Of a stretch of DNA of 32,825 nucleotides, positions 573 to 32,825 are shown piece by piece (within the stretch, counting starts at the first letter, position 1; the number at the start of each line of letters is the position of its first letter). Location: positions 1-32,825 of the IMG/VR virus record IMGVR_UViG_3300020205_001861; one strand, given 5' to 3'. The notes under the pieces were generated by a model that saw only the letters and a list, made by a program, of their open reading frames with translations, was not told the origin of the DNA and did not search any database. Both the position numbers and the translations under genes were made by a program. This DNA is from a virus.

Positions 573-1298
573 TTATGCGGTATAATCAAAATCTAAACTG
601 TCGGTTGTTTCGTTAAAATTAATTGAAAATTTTTGAGTTGCCGAATCGGTAGCGCCAATTTCAACTGCTCCATCTACACTAAGAGTTCCAGTTGATGGGT
701 TAAATGTAAGTTTTGTGGAAGAAACGTTAATAGAGGTACTGTTTCCAGAAGTTACATCTTCAAATACAATGTATCTTGTAGCATTTGTTGTAGTATCATC
801 AGTTACTGTTATGCTACTAGCGCCAGAAACAGTTGCCCAAGTATTATCACCTCTCAAGAATGTGGTGTTGTCTGCTGTGCCAGTACCTAATCTTGCGGTT
901 GCTACAGTACCGGAAGATAAATTAGAGGCATTTAAAGTTGTTAAATTAGCACCAGAAACAGAACCAAAATTACCGGACCAAGTACCAGAAGTTACAGTAC
1001 CAGTTGTGGTTAAACTACTAGAACCTCCTAAAGGAGATGCTCCTAAAGTATTATAAGAGATCGTTCTTGCAGCGGACCCATCAAAAGTTGTTCCAGTAGC
1101 ATCTCCCGTCCCGCTATTGTTGAAGGTTACTGCGTTTGCTACAGAAGCATTGCCATCAACCACCAAGGTAGCAGTATTAGATGAATTGCCTACGTAAATT
1201 TTCTTGTCAGTAATATTTACTCCAAGTTCACCATAGGTGAGAGTCGGAACTGCCGAAGCAGTTTCCGACCTTTTAACTTTAACTATCGGATTTGCCAT
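573..1298 (-). CDS. Tail-fibre-like structural protein with Mtd-like N-terminus
   Basis: A 241-aa protein. The N-terminus (VKRSETASAVPTLTYGEL, then GVNITDKKIYVGN) matches the pattern of the major tropism determinant N-terminal domain: a KRS start, a GEL-x-VN motif and a D-x-K-x-Y strand. This domain is known from phage tail fibres and adhesins. The rest is Thr/Ser/Gly/Ala-rich beta-repeat sequence of low complexity, as in trimeric fibres. The gene starts 30 bases after the 75-aa coiled-coil gene, with no late promoter of its own, so it is probably co-transcribed from 1579-1586. A fibre or fibre-adaptor role is inferred; the receptor is unknown. Confidence 0.75.
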   Translation of the reverse strand: MANPIVKVKRSETASAVPTLTYGELGVNITDKKIYVGNSSNTATLVVDGNASVANAVTFNNSGTGDATGTTFDGSAARTISYNTLGASPLGGSSSLTTTGTVTSGTWSGNFGSVSGANLTTLNASNLSSGTVATARLGTGTADNTTFLRGDNTWATVSGASSITVTDDTTTNATRYIVFEDVTSGNSTSINVSSTKLTFNPSTGTLSVDGAVEIGATDSATQKFSINFNETTDSLDFDYTA

Positions 1299-30030: not shown

Positions 30031-30054
30031 GGCGAATTTTTTTATTTTACGAAT

Positions 30055-30063
30055 ATTATAGCA
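30055..30063 (-). promoter_or_regulatory. Extended -10 promoter TGCTATAAT for the HNH gene
   Basis: The minus strand reads TGCTATAAT, a perfect TGnTATAAT. No good -35 is visible. It lies 25 bases before the chosen HNH start. With one preceding base it reads GTGCTATAAT, which matches the GTGCCATAAT seen twice in the accessory block. Confidence 0.6.
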
Positions 30064-30122
30064 CAACAAATAGAGGTCGCTGGGAAACGTTTGTAGGTTT
30101 GAAAGTGCTAGATGGGACCCGC

Positions 30123-30178
30123 CCGGCAAACCGGTTATACCCCCGAAGGGGCCATTTAACTGCCTAAGTGTTACTTAG
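30123..30178 (-). other. Cluster of three small hairpins, possible terminator or structured RNA
   Basis: Three adjacent inverted repeats in minus-strand order: CTAAGT-AAC-ACTTAG (30164-30178), a CCCC-UUCG-GGGG tetraloop hairpin (30140-30151), and CCGG-TTTG-CCGG (30123-30134). UUCG tetraloops are unusually stable and often cap phage terminators, but no long U-run follows. Together they mark the boundary between the accessory block and the HNH gene. Confidence 0.4.
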
Positions 30179-30257
30179 TGAAGTGCAGTTGGTGTTTCTG
30201 AGGGCGAACAGATTGCAATCTCTGCTTACCTTGGACATCATCAATCAATCGAATCAT
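30171..30257 (-). CDS. Possible 28-aa ORF after the HicA-like gene
   Basis: ATG at 30255-30257 to TAA at 30171-30173; the product begins MIRLIDDVQGKQRL. The only support is position: a TAGACTA element (30279-30285) lies 21 bases upstream, similar to the spacing before other genes of this block. There is no good Shine-Dalgarno and the frame is open for a long way upstream, so it may be spurious. Confidence 0.25.
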   Translation of the reverse strand: MIRLIDDVQGKQRLQSVRPQKHQLHFTK

Positions 30258-30758: not shown

Positions 30759-30926
30759 TCAGAAGCGTTGGCGATCATAGCGAGAATCGCCCCATCCGTC
30801 CCGCTGATAACGTCGGGCATCGTAATCATCAGCGGTCATCATGTCATCATGCTCCCGCTCGATAGGGGCAAGGGGTGCCAGGGCGTAGGCAATGATTTCG
30901 CTGTGGGTCATCTTGGAGCGGATCAT
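30759..30926 (-). CDS. Unknown small protein, 55 aa, behind leader copy A
   Basis: ATG at 30924-30926, stop TGA at 30759-30761. The product starts MIRSKMTHSEIIAYALAPLA and ends with an Asp/Arg/Tyr-rich tail (DDYDARRYQRDGWGDSRYDR then QRF). The N-terminal part is helical and the tail resembles low-complexity RNA- or protein-binding sequence. The start is fixed by the 34-bp leader at 30931-30964, which sits 4 bases upstream of the ATG exactly as in other copies. Function unknown. Confidence 0.65.
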   Translation of the reverse strand: MIRSKMTHSEIIAYALAPLAPIEREHDDMMTADDYDARRYQRDGWGDSRYDRQRF

Positions 30927-30930
30927 CGGT

Positions 30931-30964
30931 CTCGGTTCGTTTGGTATGCTTTAGTCTACAGGGT
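30931..30964 (-). promoter_or_regulatory. Leader repeat copy A
   Basis: A 34-bp element on the minus strand with ACCCTGTAGACTAAAGC in its first half and CCAAACGAACCGAG in its second. It is identical over all 34 positions to copy B and differs from copy C by one base. It runs from just after the stop of the 60-aa gene (TGA at 30967) to 4 bases before the 55-aa ATG. Likely a promoter (TAGACT as -10-like hexamer) plus 5' leader. Confidence 0.75.
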
Positions 30965-30966
30965 GC

Positions 30967-31149
30967 TCAGTTCATCCAAGCGGCGAGGTGTGCCAGTTCA
31001 GCAGCTGCCTCCTGCAGGTTGTCAGCGTTCAGATCTGCCAGGCAGGATGCCAGATCAGCATCATCAACGCAATCCAGATCGCCGTTCAGCTCTGCTGCCA
31101 TTTCAGCAGCGAGGGCGAGGCATTGGTCTCTCAGGTCGTTTTCTTTCAT
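30967..31149 (-). CDS. Acidic helical small protein, 60 aa
   Basis: The protein is nearly all Ala/Leu/Asp/Glu/Asn and predicted fully helical (DLRDQCLALAAEMAAELNGD, later ADLNADNLQEAAAELAHLAA). No family is recognised. It is strongly acidic, as are several phage proteins that mimic DNA or inhibit host enzymes, but that is speculation. The TAGACTA element (31155-31161) lies only 5 bases before the ATG, leaving room for little or no leader; if TAGACT is a -10 hexamer the mRNA would be leaderless or nearly so. Confidence 0.65.
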   Translation of the reverse strand: MKENDLRDQCLALAAEMAAELNGDLDCVDDADLASCLADLNADNLQEAAAELAHLAAWMN

Positions 31150-31167
31150 GCTGTTAGTCTACAGGGT
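31147..31167 (-). promoter_or_regulatory. Shortened leader copy D
   Basis: The minus strand carries ACCCTGTAGACTAA followed by CAGC and the ATG of the 60-aa gene: the first half of the 34-bp leader without the CCAAACGAACCGAG half. A GGGGCA-GGGA-TGCCCC hairpin lies just upstream (31170-31185 region), directly after the DUF7249-like gene. Confidence 0.6.
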
Positions 31168-31200
31168 CAGAGGGGCATCCCTGCCCCCTGCTGTGCCAGT

Positions 31201-31482
31201 TTAGAGACTGGTCATCATCTCTACGATCTCGGCATGATTGACCTTAGGATCGGCATAATCTACGCCGTCACGGGTAGACTCATAAGCACCATTCACAGCA
31301 CAGCGAATGAACTTCACATAGGGCGATTCACCTTCGGCAGCATACTCTACACATGCCTTAGCAGTGTTATAGAGAAACTCGCTATTCTGAATCCAGAGAG
31401 CTACATTCCAGGTTTCGTAATTTGCCCACCCGTTGTAGCTCTCGGTTGCGGTGGAAGCGGTGGAAGCGGTGGTCTGAGTCAT
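31201..31482 (-). CDS. DUF7249-like protein, 93 aa
   Basis: The start is ATG at 31480-31482, set by leader copy B; a longer open frame to 31587 runs back through the leader and is rejected. After a Thr/Ser-rich N-terminus comes YNGWANYETWNVALWIQN (residues about 16-33), the hallmark N-G-W-x-N-Y-E-T-W-x-V-A-L-W motif of a small family found in phages, archaea and cyanobacteria that I know as DUF7249. The C-terminal part has DGVDYADPKVNHAEIVEMM. Function of the family is unknown. It ends at a hairpin that precedes the 60-aa gene. Confidence 0.75.
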   Translation of the reverse strand: MTQTTASTASTATESYNGWANYETWNVALWIQNSEFLYNTAKACVEYAAEGESPYVKFIRCAVNGAYESTRDGVDYADPKVNHAEIVEMMTSL

Positions 31483-31485
31483 TGT

Positions 31486-31519
31486 CTCGGTTCGTTTGGT
31501 ATGCTTTAGTCTACAGGGT
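31486..31519 (-). promoter_or_regulatory. Leader repeat copy B
   Basis: Identical 34-bp leader to copy A, ending 3 bases before the ATG of the DUF7249-like gene. The bases just upstream (GCGCTGCCG) are also shared with copy C. A hairpin with perfect 7-bp arms (GCAGCGC/GCGCTGC, about 31522-31542) lies between the stop of the preceding gene and this leader. Confidence 0.8.
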
Positions 31520-31555
31520 CGGCAGCGCATCCTGGGCGCTGCTTGTGCCAGTGCC

Positions 31556-31771
31556 TCAGGCGGCACAGACTGCCTGCGCCAGATCATTGGCAGCAGTCAG
31601 CAGGGCAGACTCCATGTTAACCTCTCGGGTATCCATCAAAGCATAATCGAAGAAACCAGATTCCAGTTCCTGCATGTAAGCGGTTGCCGTAGAGAAGCAA
31701 TCAAACAGGCGCAGCGAATCGAAGGACTCGCCCTCATAATCAAACCCACCAATTACAGCGTAGACTTTCAA
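31556..31771 (-). CDS. Unknown small protein, 71 aa, TTG start
   Basis: The frame is open from 31849, but the protein most likely begins at TTG 31769-31771, giving M-KVYAVIGGFDYEGESFD followed by SLRLFDCFSTATAYMQELES. Support: a GGAG Shine-Dalgarno 5 bases before the TTG, and a degenerate copy of the leader (CAAACGAAACGGAGCAA) in the same position as in other genes. The pattern K-V-Y-x-V-I-G-G-x-x-Y-E-G-E-x-x-x-S-x-x-L-F-x-x-x-x-x-A resembles small alpha/beta phage proteins of unknown function. The upstream in-frame stretch (MGECPPFSPLPPLG) is a translation of the promoter region. Confidence 0.65.
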   Translation of the reverse strand: MKVYAVIGGFDYEGESFDSLRLFDCFSTATAYMQELESGFFDYALMDTREVNMESALLTAANDLAQAVCAA

Positions 31772-31772
31772 A

Positions 31773-31809
31773 ATTGCTCCGTTTCGTTTGTTGAATGTAT
31801 TATGGCACC
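31773..31809 (-). promoter_or_regulatory. Extended -10 promoter GGTGCCATAAT plus degenerate leader
   Basis: The minus strand reads GGTGCCATAAT (31799-31809), then eight bases, then CAAACGAAACGGAGCAA, which aligns with the second half of leader copies A-C. CATAAT occupies the place of TAGACT in those copies, which supports reading both hexamers as -10 elements. A second GGTGCCATAAT occurs at 32401-32411. Confidence 0.65.
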
Positions 31810-31864
31810 CCAGAGGGGGCAGCGGGGAGAATGGTGGACACTCTCCCAACTGACCCTATTCTGT

Positions 31865-32299
31865 TCAGTTATCGCGGAAGATGTGGCAGGGTCGATAGGA
31901 TGAACCATCACGACATGCGGTGAAATCATATCGCAAACTAGACTCCCAAGTTGCCTCCCAATCTACTACTAGAAAGGCATCAACTTCGCCATTCAATTCG
32001 TTATAGTATTCCTCAGCAAACTCTGCCTCATTGTGATAGAAACCACGATAGCGTTCTTCACAATCTTCAATATAGCTAACAGCACCCATCTCTTCAATCA
32101 AAGCATCAACTGCCTCATACCCGATGATATCACCAACTCGGACATATTCCTCATAATAGGCAACAAAATCTGCCTCGCCGTGATTATCAACAAACTCCAG
32201 CATATCGTCTAGATCATAATCATCAATCAAATCATTAATCTTCTCTACAATCTCAGCAGCGAGAACTTCTTTGTAGTTAGCAGTCAAAGTGACGGACAT
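31865..32299 (-). CDS. ArdA-like antirestriction protein
   Basis: A 144-aa acidic protein. Residues about 48-144 match the ArdA pattern: YEEYVRVGDIIGYEAVDALI, then EERYRGFYHNEAEFAEEYYN (the ArdA Y-x-G-x-x-x-S/N-E-x-x-F-A-E-E segment), then VVDWEATWESSLRYDF and a terminal IFRDN (ArdA: D-Y-E-x-x-x-R-D-L ... F-x-x-G ... V-F-R). ArdA mimics B-form DNA and blocks type I restriction enzymes; known ArdA proteins are about 165-170 aa, so this one is a little short at the N-terminal side. It would protect phage DNA at entry, consistent with its own upstream promoter and location outside the late genes. Alternative: a DNA-mimic with another target. Confidence 0.75.
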   Translation of the reverse strand: MSVTLTANYKEVLAAEIVEKINDLIDDYDLDDMLEFVDNHGEADFVAYYEEYVRVGDIIGYEAVDALIEEMGAVSYIEDCEERYRGFYHNEAEFAEEYYNELNGEVDAFLVVDWEATWESSLRYDFTACRDGSSYRPCHIFRDN

Positions 32300-32323
32300 G
32301 ATGTAAAGAATTGGTTTGAATTT

Positions 32324-32345
32324 GGCGGGTCCGTGACCTCCCGCC
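32324..32345 (-). promoter_or_regulatory. Hairpin in the ArdA-like leader
   Basis: GGCGGG and CCCGCC arms with a 10-base loop lie 25 bases before the ArdA-like ATG at 32299. The 155-base gap 32300-32454 also holds GGTGCCATAAT and AGAGGG/CCCTCT arms, but no ORF. A regulatory leader is plausible. Confidence 0.4.
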
Positions 32346-32400
32346 TACGGGATTAGAGGGTCTGTGGAGTTGCCTCCCTCGCGTCTCCCTCTATGAATCA

Positions 32401-32411
32401 ATTATGGCACC
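32401..32411 (-). promoter_or_regulatory. Extended -10 promoter GGTGCCATAAT
   Basis: The minus strand reads GGTGCCATAAT, identical over 11 bases to 31799-31809, and continues with T-x-A-T-T-C like the other copy. It is about 100 bases upstream of the ArdA-like ATG, leaving a long structured leader. No clear -35 is visible. Confidence 0.6.
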
Positions 32412-32454
32412 CTATCGGGGCATCTGGTGCCGCTGGTGGGCAGTTCCCGGATTG

Positions 32455-32640
32455 TCACATGCCATTGAGAAAATCAGCAATAGCGTCCTCATATGCTTCC
32501 CAGGTGCTATAACGATCTTGAAATGCTTTGGGCACCTCACGATTGAAAACTTCGCCATGCTTGGCTATACGGGCAGCAGGCAGATCACGACCCTTAGCGA
32601 GGATCTGCTGCTCGTAAATGTTAGGATTGAAGCGGGACAT
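32455..32640 (-). CDS. Unknown small protein, 61 aa, behind leader copy C
   Basis: The product begins MSRFNPNIYEQQILAKGRDL and ends with a helical segment (AYEDAIADFLNGM). I do not recognise a family. It is basic in the middle and acidic at the end. The start at 32640 is supported by leader copy C, which ends 5 bases upstream. The gene is the most upstream complete member of the leader-bearing set in this window. Confidence 0.7.
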   Translation of the reverse strand: MSRFNPNIYEQQILAKGRDLPAARIAKHGEVFNREVPKAFQDRYSTWEAYEDAIADFLNGM

Positions 32641-32645
32641 TTGAT

Positions 32646-32679
32646 CTCGGTTTGTTTGGTATGCTTTAGTCTACAGGGT
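32646..32679 (-). promoter_or_regulatory. Leader repeat copy C
   Basis: The same 34-bp element as copies A and B with one substitution (CAAACAAACCGAG instead of CAAACGAACCGAG), placed 5 bases before the ATG at 32640. Upstream bases GCGCTGCCG are shared with copy B. Confidence 0.75.
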
Positions 32680-32711
32680 CGGCAGCGCCTCTCAGGGTCG
32701 CATTGTGCCAC

Positions 32712-32825
32712 CTAGGCAACTGGCATATGCGGATCTACTGATTCTAACAATTCTGTGGCAAACTCCTCACCATAAAGTTCTTCGATCTCACCAACAATCT
32801 CCTCTTCAGTATAAGTCTGATACTC
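32712..32825 (-). CDS. Acidic ORF, 5' end outside the window
   Basis: An open frame runs from the window edge for 37 codons to TAG at 32712-32714. The visible part (TEEEIVGEIEELYGEEFATE, then LLESVDPHMPVA) is acidic and helical. No family can be assigned from this fragment. It is followed by TGGCACA, a short sequence that also occurs after the stops of the genes ending at 31201 and 31556, and then by leader copy C. Confidence 0.55.
   Translation of the reverse strand, partial: EYQTYTEEEIVGEIEELYGEEFATELLESVDPHMPVA

Follow-up and report, generated by a model that had tools for sequence, protein, structure and literature searches.

The 34-bp repeat found upstream of three unrelated small genes in the window (the whole stretch of viral DNA analyzed here, 32,825 nt) is the downstream half of a minus-strand element of about 80 bp. 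The six copies of this element, each before a different gene, very probably constitute an array of compact early-type promoters of a T4-like cyanophage, with one ahead of every small gene in a variable block that lies upstream of gene 25. Such a phage is the source of the 32.8-kb window, which encodes homologues of gp6, gp25, and gp8; its gp6 has its closest matches in Synechococcus phages (~50–54% amino-acid identity), and its small genes match those of S-PM2, S-SZBM1, S-H9-1, S-RIM32, and S-WAM2. The genes behind the elements are small genes without known function and one anti-restriction gene, a content that fits early expression.

An HNH endonuclease gene (PF13392; 29428–30129, minus strand, start uncertain) separates the structural genes from the small-gene block; the adjoining stretch at 30050–30240 might be structured non-coding DNA. 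The N-terminal domain of the major tropism determinant (PF18454) is matched weakly, with a score under the curated cut-off, at 573–1298 (minus strand). No Rfam family matched in the window and no tRNA was found there, and a known RNA family or tRNA was rejected as the identity of the repeat on these grounds.

Structure of the element and its copies in the window

The element consists, in order, of the site GTGMCA-N10-TGKCAC, a spacer of 29–30 nt, a −10 hexamer (TAGACT in the window, aside from two CATAAT copies), an A/C-rich leader of ~20 nt, and an ATG. GTGMCA and TGKCAC are reverse-complementary, and the upstream part is thus an inverted repeat; a direct repeat (TGRCA…TGGCA) was dropped in its favor, given the copies in P-TIM40 and S-SSM7. 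The six window elements lie at 31011–30953, 31214–31156, 31566–31508, 31856–31799, 32458–32401, and 32726–32668, and the −10 follows TGGCACA (or its variant) at a distance of 30 nt in four of them and of 29 nt in both CATAAT copies.

A sequence-only reading of this DNA had described copies A (30931–30964) and B (31486–31519) as identical and copy C (32646–32679) as differing by one base. This is correct (34 of 34 bp for A and B), as is the placing of the repeat 3–5 nt before start codons: 4 nt for A (ATG 30926), 3 nt for B (31482), and 5 nt for C (32640). The genes concerned are on the minus strand, which that reading did not give. Within the window, an exact 13-mer core is found in A, B, and C only, while a 14-mer core is exact in A and B, has one mismatch in C, and occurs nowhere else at up to 3 mismatches. 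The repeat is real, but its proposed boundaries were too narrow: the element continues for ~45 bp further upstream, to an overlooked site containing TGGCACA. Two more copies had been noted as truncated (31147–31167) and degenerate (31773–31789). Both exist, but the first appears to be a complete promoter with its ATG on the predicted +1, and the second is full-length, with TGTCCAC at the TGGCACA position. The sixth copy (TGCCCAC and CATAAT, preceding the anti-restriction gene) was absent from that reading.

All six copies and the genes behind them are on the minus strand. Copy C has its inverted-repeat site (atgccagttgcctaggTGGCACA) at 32704–32726 and its TAGACT at 32668–32673; the predicted +1 is near 32662, and the predicted 5′ leader (32641–32662) is followed by a gene of 61 aa (phrog_649; 32455–32640). 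In the sixth copy the site (GTGACAATCCGGGAAC-TGCCCAC) is at 32436–32458 and CATAAT at 32401–32406, and a predicted +1 near 32394 would give the anti-restriction protein gene (144 aa; phrog_36653, E 7e-40; 31865–32299) a leader of ~95 nt. The first 60 nt of this predicted leader fold strongly (−22.7 kcal/mol). The “degenerate” copy has its site (GGGTCAGTTGGGAGAG-TGTCCAC) at 31834–31856, CATAAT (extended, TGCCATAAT) at 31799–31804, and a predicted +1 at 31792, ahead of a small gene (phrog_17343; 31556–31771) with a probable TTG start after GGAG. Copy B combines a site at 31544–31566 (gtgccgcctgaggcacTGGCACA), a 7-bp perfect hairpin (GCAGCGC/GCGCTGC) in the spacer part at 31521–31543, TAGACT at 31508–31513, a predicted +1 near 31502, and a predicted leader at 31483–31502, before a gene of 93 aa (phrog_871; 31201–31482). 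For the “truncated” copy (site tgaccagtctctaaacTGGCACA, 31192–31214; TAGACT, 31156–31161) the +1 would coincide with the ATG at 31149, and the 60-aa gene (30967–31149) is predicted to have a leaderless mRNA. Copy A has its site (gaggcagctgctgaacTGGCACA, 30989–31011) inside the 3′ end of the preceding gene, TAGACT at 30953–30958, a predicted +1 near 30947, and a predicted leader at 30927–30947, before a small gene of 55 aa (30759–30926).

Occurrence in other viruses

The exact repeat matched nine viral contigs, in which similarity runs on upstream to TGGCACA or TGGCACC. The pattern TGGCACA-N20-28-GACCCTGTAGA matched at least 120 viral contigs, against an estimated ~8 expected by chance. A nearly identical pattern gave four matches, none cyanobacterial, in 84,980 cellular genomes; this is not above chance, and a host origin of the element was rejected. 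With a relaxed matrix, at least 296 non-redundant copies were collected from related viral contigs, although these counts are not independent, having been obtained with the motif itself from contigs many of which are related. ORFs were called mechanically. In each large contig examined the strict form is limited to a stretch of ~2 kb or less, and in S-RIM32 and S-WAM2 it lies ~2–3 kb before gene 25.

The general form (GTGMCR-N10-TGKCMMM-N29-TANNNT, at most one mismatch) was searched for in 20 records. On the forward strand it occurs 7 times in Syn9, 6 times in P-TIM40 and 9 times in S-SSM7 (all perfect in both), and 11 times in P-SSM2; it is also present several times in S-RIM32 and S-WAM2. 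S-H9-1, S-B43, and S-SZBM1 have only 2–5 scattered matches, and at this threshold there are none in S-SM2, S-CBWM1, or T4. A reversed-pattern control gave 2 matches over all 20 records. Annotated starts follow 6–32 nt downstream of all six P-TIM40 copies (21–32 nt) and of 8 of the 9 S-SSM7 copies. It would be wrong to say that Syn9 lacks the element: the window-group matrix misses its copies, which are found by searching for the architecture. The −10/leader block of Syn9 is its own (TATTCTATAAGAGTCAAAG, or a sequence close to it) and occurs five times, each time after a GTGMCA…TGKCAC-like site; the copies lie at 46.3–53 kb and, like those of P-TIM40, in a block of small genes.

Some matches fall on the opposite strand because the site is symmetric. 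P-SSM2 (AY939844) has two opposite-strand match pairs, 66592 (+)/66556 (−) and 66431 (+)/66395 (−), each sharing one inverted repeat; in each pair, one site may drive two divergent promoters.

This distribution bears on whether one promoter and its leader were simply duplicated in tandem in the window, locally and recently, without wider meaning. The spacers of copies A and B differ, in contrast to the 34 bp or more over which the two are identical, a pattern expected if gene conversion had affected the downstream half. The same leader is nevertheless found before other genes in other contigs, and the architecture recurs in many named phages, making such a duplication hardly credible. A purely local duplication without relatives, the outcome that the sequence-only reading had set against its own proposal, is excluded by the presence of the architecture in many related phages.

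Predicted transcription start and leaderless class

A −10 without a −35 is, alone, a weak predictor of a promoter. Here, the fixed surroundings of the hexamer argue for one. Among the matches listed there are 116 non-redundant exact copies; the distance from TGGCAC to CCTGTAGA is 27 nt in 77 of these, 28 nt in 25, and 26 nt in 13, and the position 12 nt before TGGCAC is C in 100% (rounded). At 6 and 7 nt after the −10 the same copies have C (77%) and A (81%), a CA which is the predicted place of transcription start, and their leaders are almost T-free. The proposal that the repeat is a promoter hexamer followed by a 5′ leader fits this position, with hundreds of relatives having a −10 of the form TANNNT, CA at the predicted +1, and an ATG 20–30 nt further on. 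The element was also rightly set apart from late promoters: it does not contain the T4 late promoter sequence TATAAATA, and (N)ATAAATA sites sit elsewhere on the same strand.

The start codon played no part in finding the 296 listed copies, but its position in them is strictly bimodal. The first usable ATG is exactly 6 nt after the −10 in 44 and 20–30 nt after it in 244, with none in between; 8 have none. In the 6-nt class, which includes the “truncated” window copy (ATG 31149) and the annotated S-SSM7 gene SSSM7_052, the A of the ATG is the predicted +1, and a leaderless mRNA is therefore expected, although some of these ATGs are followed by a second in-frame ATG, and not all 44 need be true starts.

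We infer promoter activity and early timing, and a mechanism can be suggested. A dimeric DNA-binding protein, of host or phage, would bind GTGMCA-N10-TGKCAC, centered ~54 bp upstream of the start, and would stand in for the missing −35 box. Host RNA polymerase would then start from the −10 (TAGACT, TAGAAT, or CATAAT) at an A 6–7 nt downstream. The resulting mRNA would be leaderless or would have a short A/C-rich leader without structure, in most cases lacking a Shine-Dalgarno sequence.

The spacer hairpin

The preceding ORF ends just before TGGCACA or within the spacer, and the folding of the spacer depends on which. Where the upstream stop codon precedes the site, 39% of spacers have a perfect stem of at least 6 bp, as against 1.6% of shuffled ones; for coding spacers the figures are 2 and 1.1%. 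A hairpin in every copy was thus rejected: it is mainly limited to copies with a non-coding spacer, in which it is frequent, so that many copies combine a terminator-like stem-loop with the putative promoter. In the window, strong folding is seen in copy B and in the “truncated” copy. No U-tract follows the window spacer hairpins, which have (T)GACCCTG or GGTGC in place of a T-run; a stem with a T-tract is found in the spacers of some marine relatives, e.g., P-SSM2 (AACCCCCTTTCAGGGGGTTTTTT) and P-TIM40. If the preceding gene is already complete upstream of the site, the 29–30-nt spacer, often a hairpin, would probably end or protect the preceding transcript, and where it folds, stem-loop and promoter may act as one combined element.

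Leader sequences and re-pairing of genes

Near-identity of the leaders had been taken as a sign either of selection on the RNA or of spread by recombination. The first finds no support, and the second fits. Leaders on the same contig but before different genes have a mean identity of 0.595 (0.459 when permuted, sd 0.013), as compared to 0.512 for the same gene on different contigs and 0.454 for unrelated copies: the leader is not conserved between phages, where mainly composition is common, but is homogenized within a phage. In each of three contigs (L009, L074, and L143), several different genes share one leader, each contig having its own version; that of L009, ttaagagtaaaccaagcaacc, is present four times.

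These values are also a difficulty for the idea that the leader itself is an RNA regulatory element (a protein or small-RNA target, or a ribosome-loading signal) whose sequence is selected. In its favor are the near-identity of 34 bp ahead of three unrelated genes and the strong A/C bias and T-poverty of the leaders in all relatives (A 47%, C 35%, T 6% across phages, with an SD-like tetramer in 6%), a bias which indicates that composition is constrained. The sequence, however, is not kept between phages even before the same gene, 44 copies have no leader at all, and Rfam offers no match; we consider this explanation improbable.

Small-gene families recur behind the element in changing order, with 43 downstream families and 145 distinct family pairs among 266 upstream/downstream gene pairs. 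One could therefore regard the element as mainly the boundary of a recombination cassette, the promoter being incidental cargo. Homology blocks between arrays do begin inside it more often than at random (46 vs. 13%), but this test is biased, since homology naturally stops at gene borders and BLAST extends into the conserved motif. Moreover, site, −10, and start codon would keep their fixed spacing only under selection for promoter function, and a role mainly as a boundary seems quite unlikely. On the promoter reading, which we prefer, the −10/leader block is homogenized in each phage and different genes come to stand behind it, a pattern that homologous recombination through the repeat would produce.

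Relation to known regulatory elements

Doron et al. reportedly described, in 2016, a novel regulatory element that controls early genes in Syn9 and P-TIM40 and is conserved across the T4-like cyanophages. Both of the named phages carry the present architecture, making it likely that the two are the same, and the window element is most likely a variant of theirs. It would differ from theirs in that the window group has TAGACT or TAGAAT with a GACCCTG extension, instead of TATAAT-like boxes, and its own leader. Our preferred reading is that T4-like cyanophages have one type of early promoter and that the window carries a distinct sequence version of it.

As a second comparison, the PeSLs (promoter-early stem-loops) of T4-type phages, said to have been described by Arbiol et al. 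in 2010 and Comeau et al. in 2014, likewise join a stem-loop to an early promoter between small variable genes, in several near-identical copies per phage. PeSL copies reportedly mediate gene exchange, and the elements here may do so too. The element has a stem-loop joined to a putative early promoter where the upstream gene stops before the site; an intrinsic terminator with a U-tract is absent from the window spacers and present in some marine copies (P-SSM2, P-TIM40). It differs from PeSLs in having an upstream inverted repeat and no −35, in the placing of the hairpin between operator and −10, in the lack of a U-tract in the window group, and in the absence of the hairpin from coding spacers. 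For one S-PM2 region, PeSL shuffling was judged unlikely (PMC4503421).

The T4 middle promoters (a MotA box near −30, plus a −10) also have an activator site in place of the −35. The site here is different, an inverted repeat at about −54, and T4 itself has no match; marine T4-like cyanophages are without motA and asiA (PMC5780444).

No description of the motif was found in the literature text that was searched. Nor did that text mention that the leader is bimodal, with a leaderless class, that the hairpin depends on where the upstream stop codon lies, or that leaders are homogenized per phage; some of this may be described in primary papers beyond it.

Significance

As the promoter type is widespread in related viruses, it looks like a standard early-gene switch with some unusual details. 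A bolder version, which we offer tentatively and consider rather unlikely, is a three-part switch of dimer site, hairpin, and −10, in which hairpin and bound protein together would tie the finish of each early gene to the onset of the following one. In a leaderless sub-class transcription would begin on the ATG itself, and each phage would keep its own homogenized −10/leader version, possibly matched to a factor of that phage. The element provides an explicit, testable consensus for the probable first switch of very abundant ocean and estuarine viruses, with start sites predicted for six window genes and hundreds elsewhere, and it predicts leaderless early mRNAs. It points to a putative DNA-binding protein, and suggests a way in which numerous small unrelated genes can be swapped and yet keep the same control.
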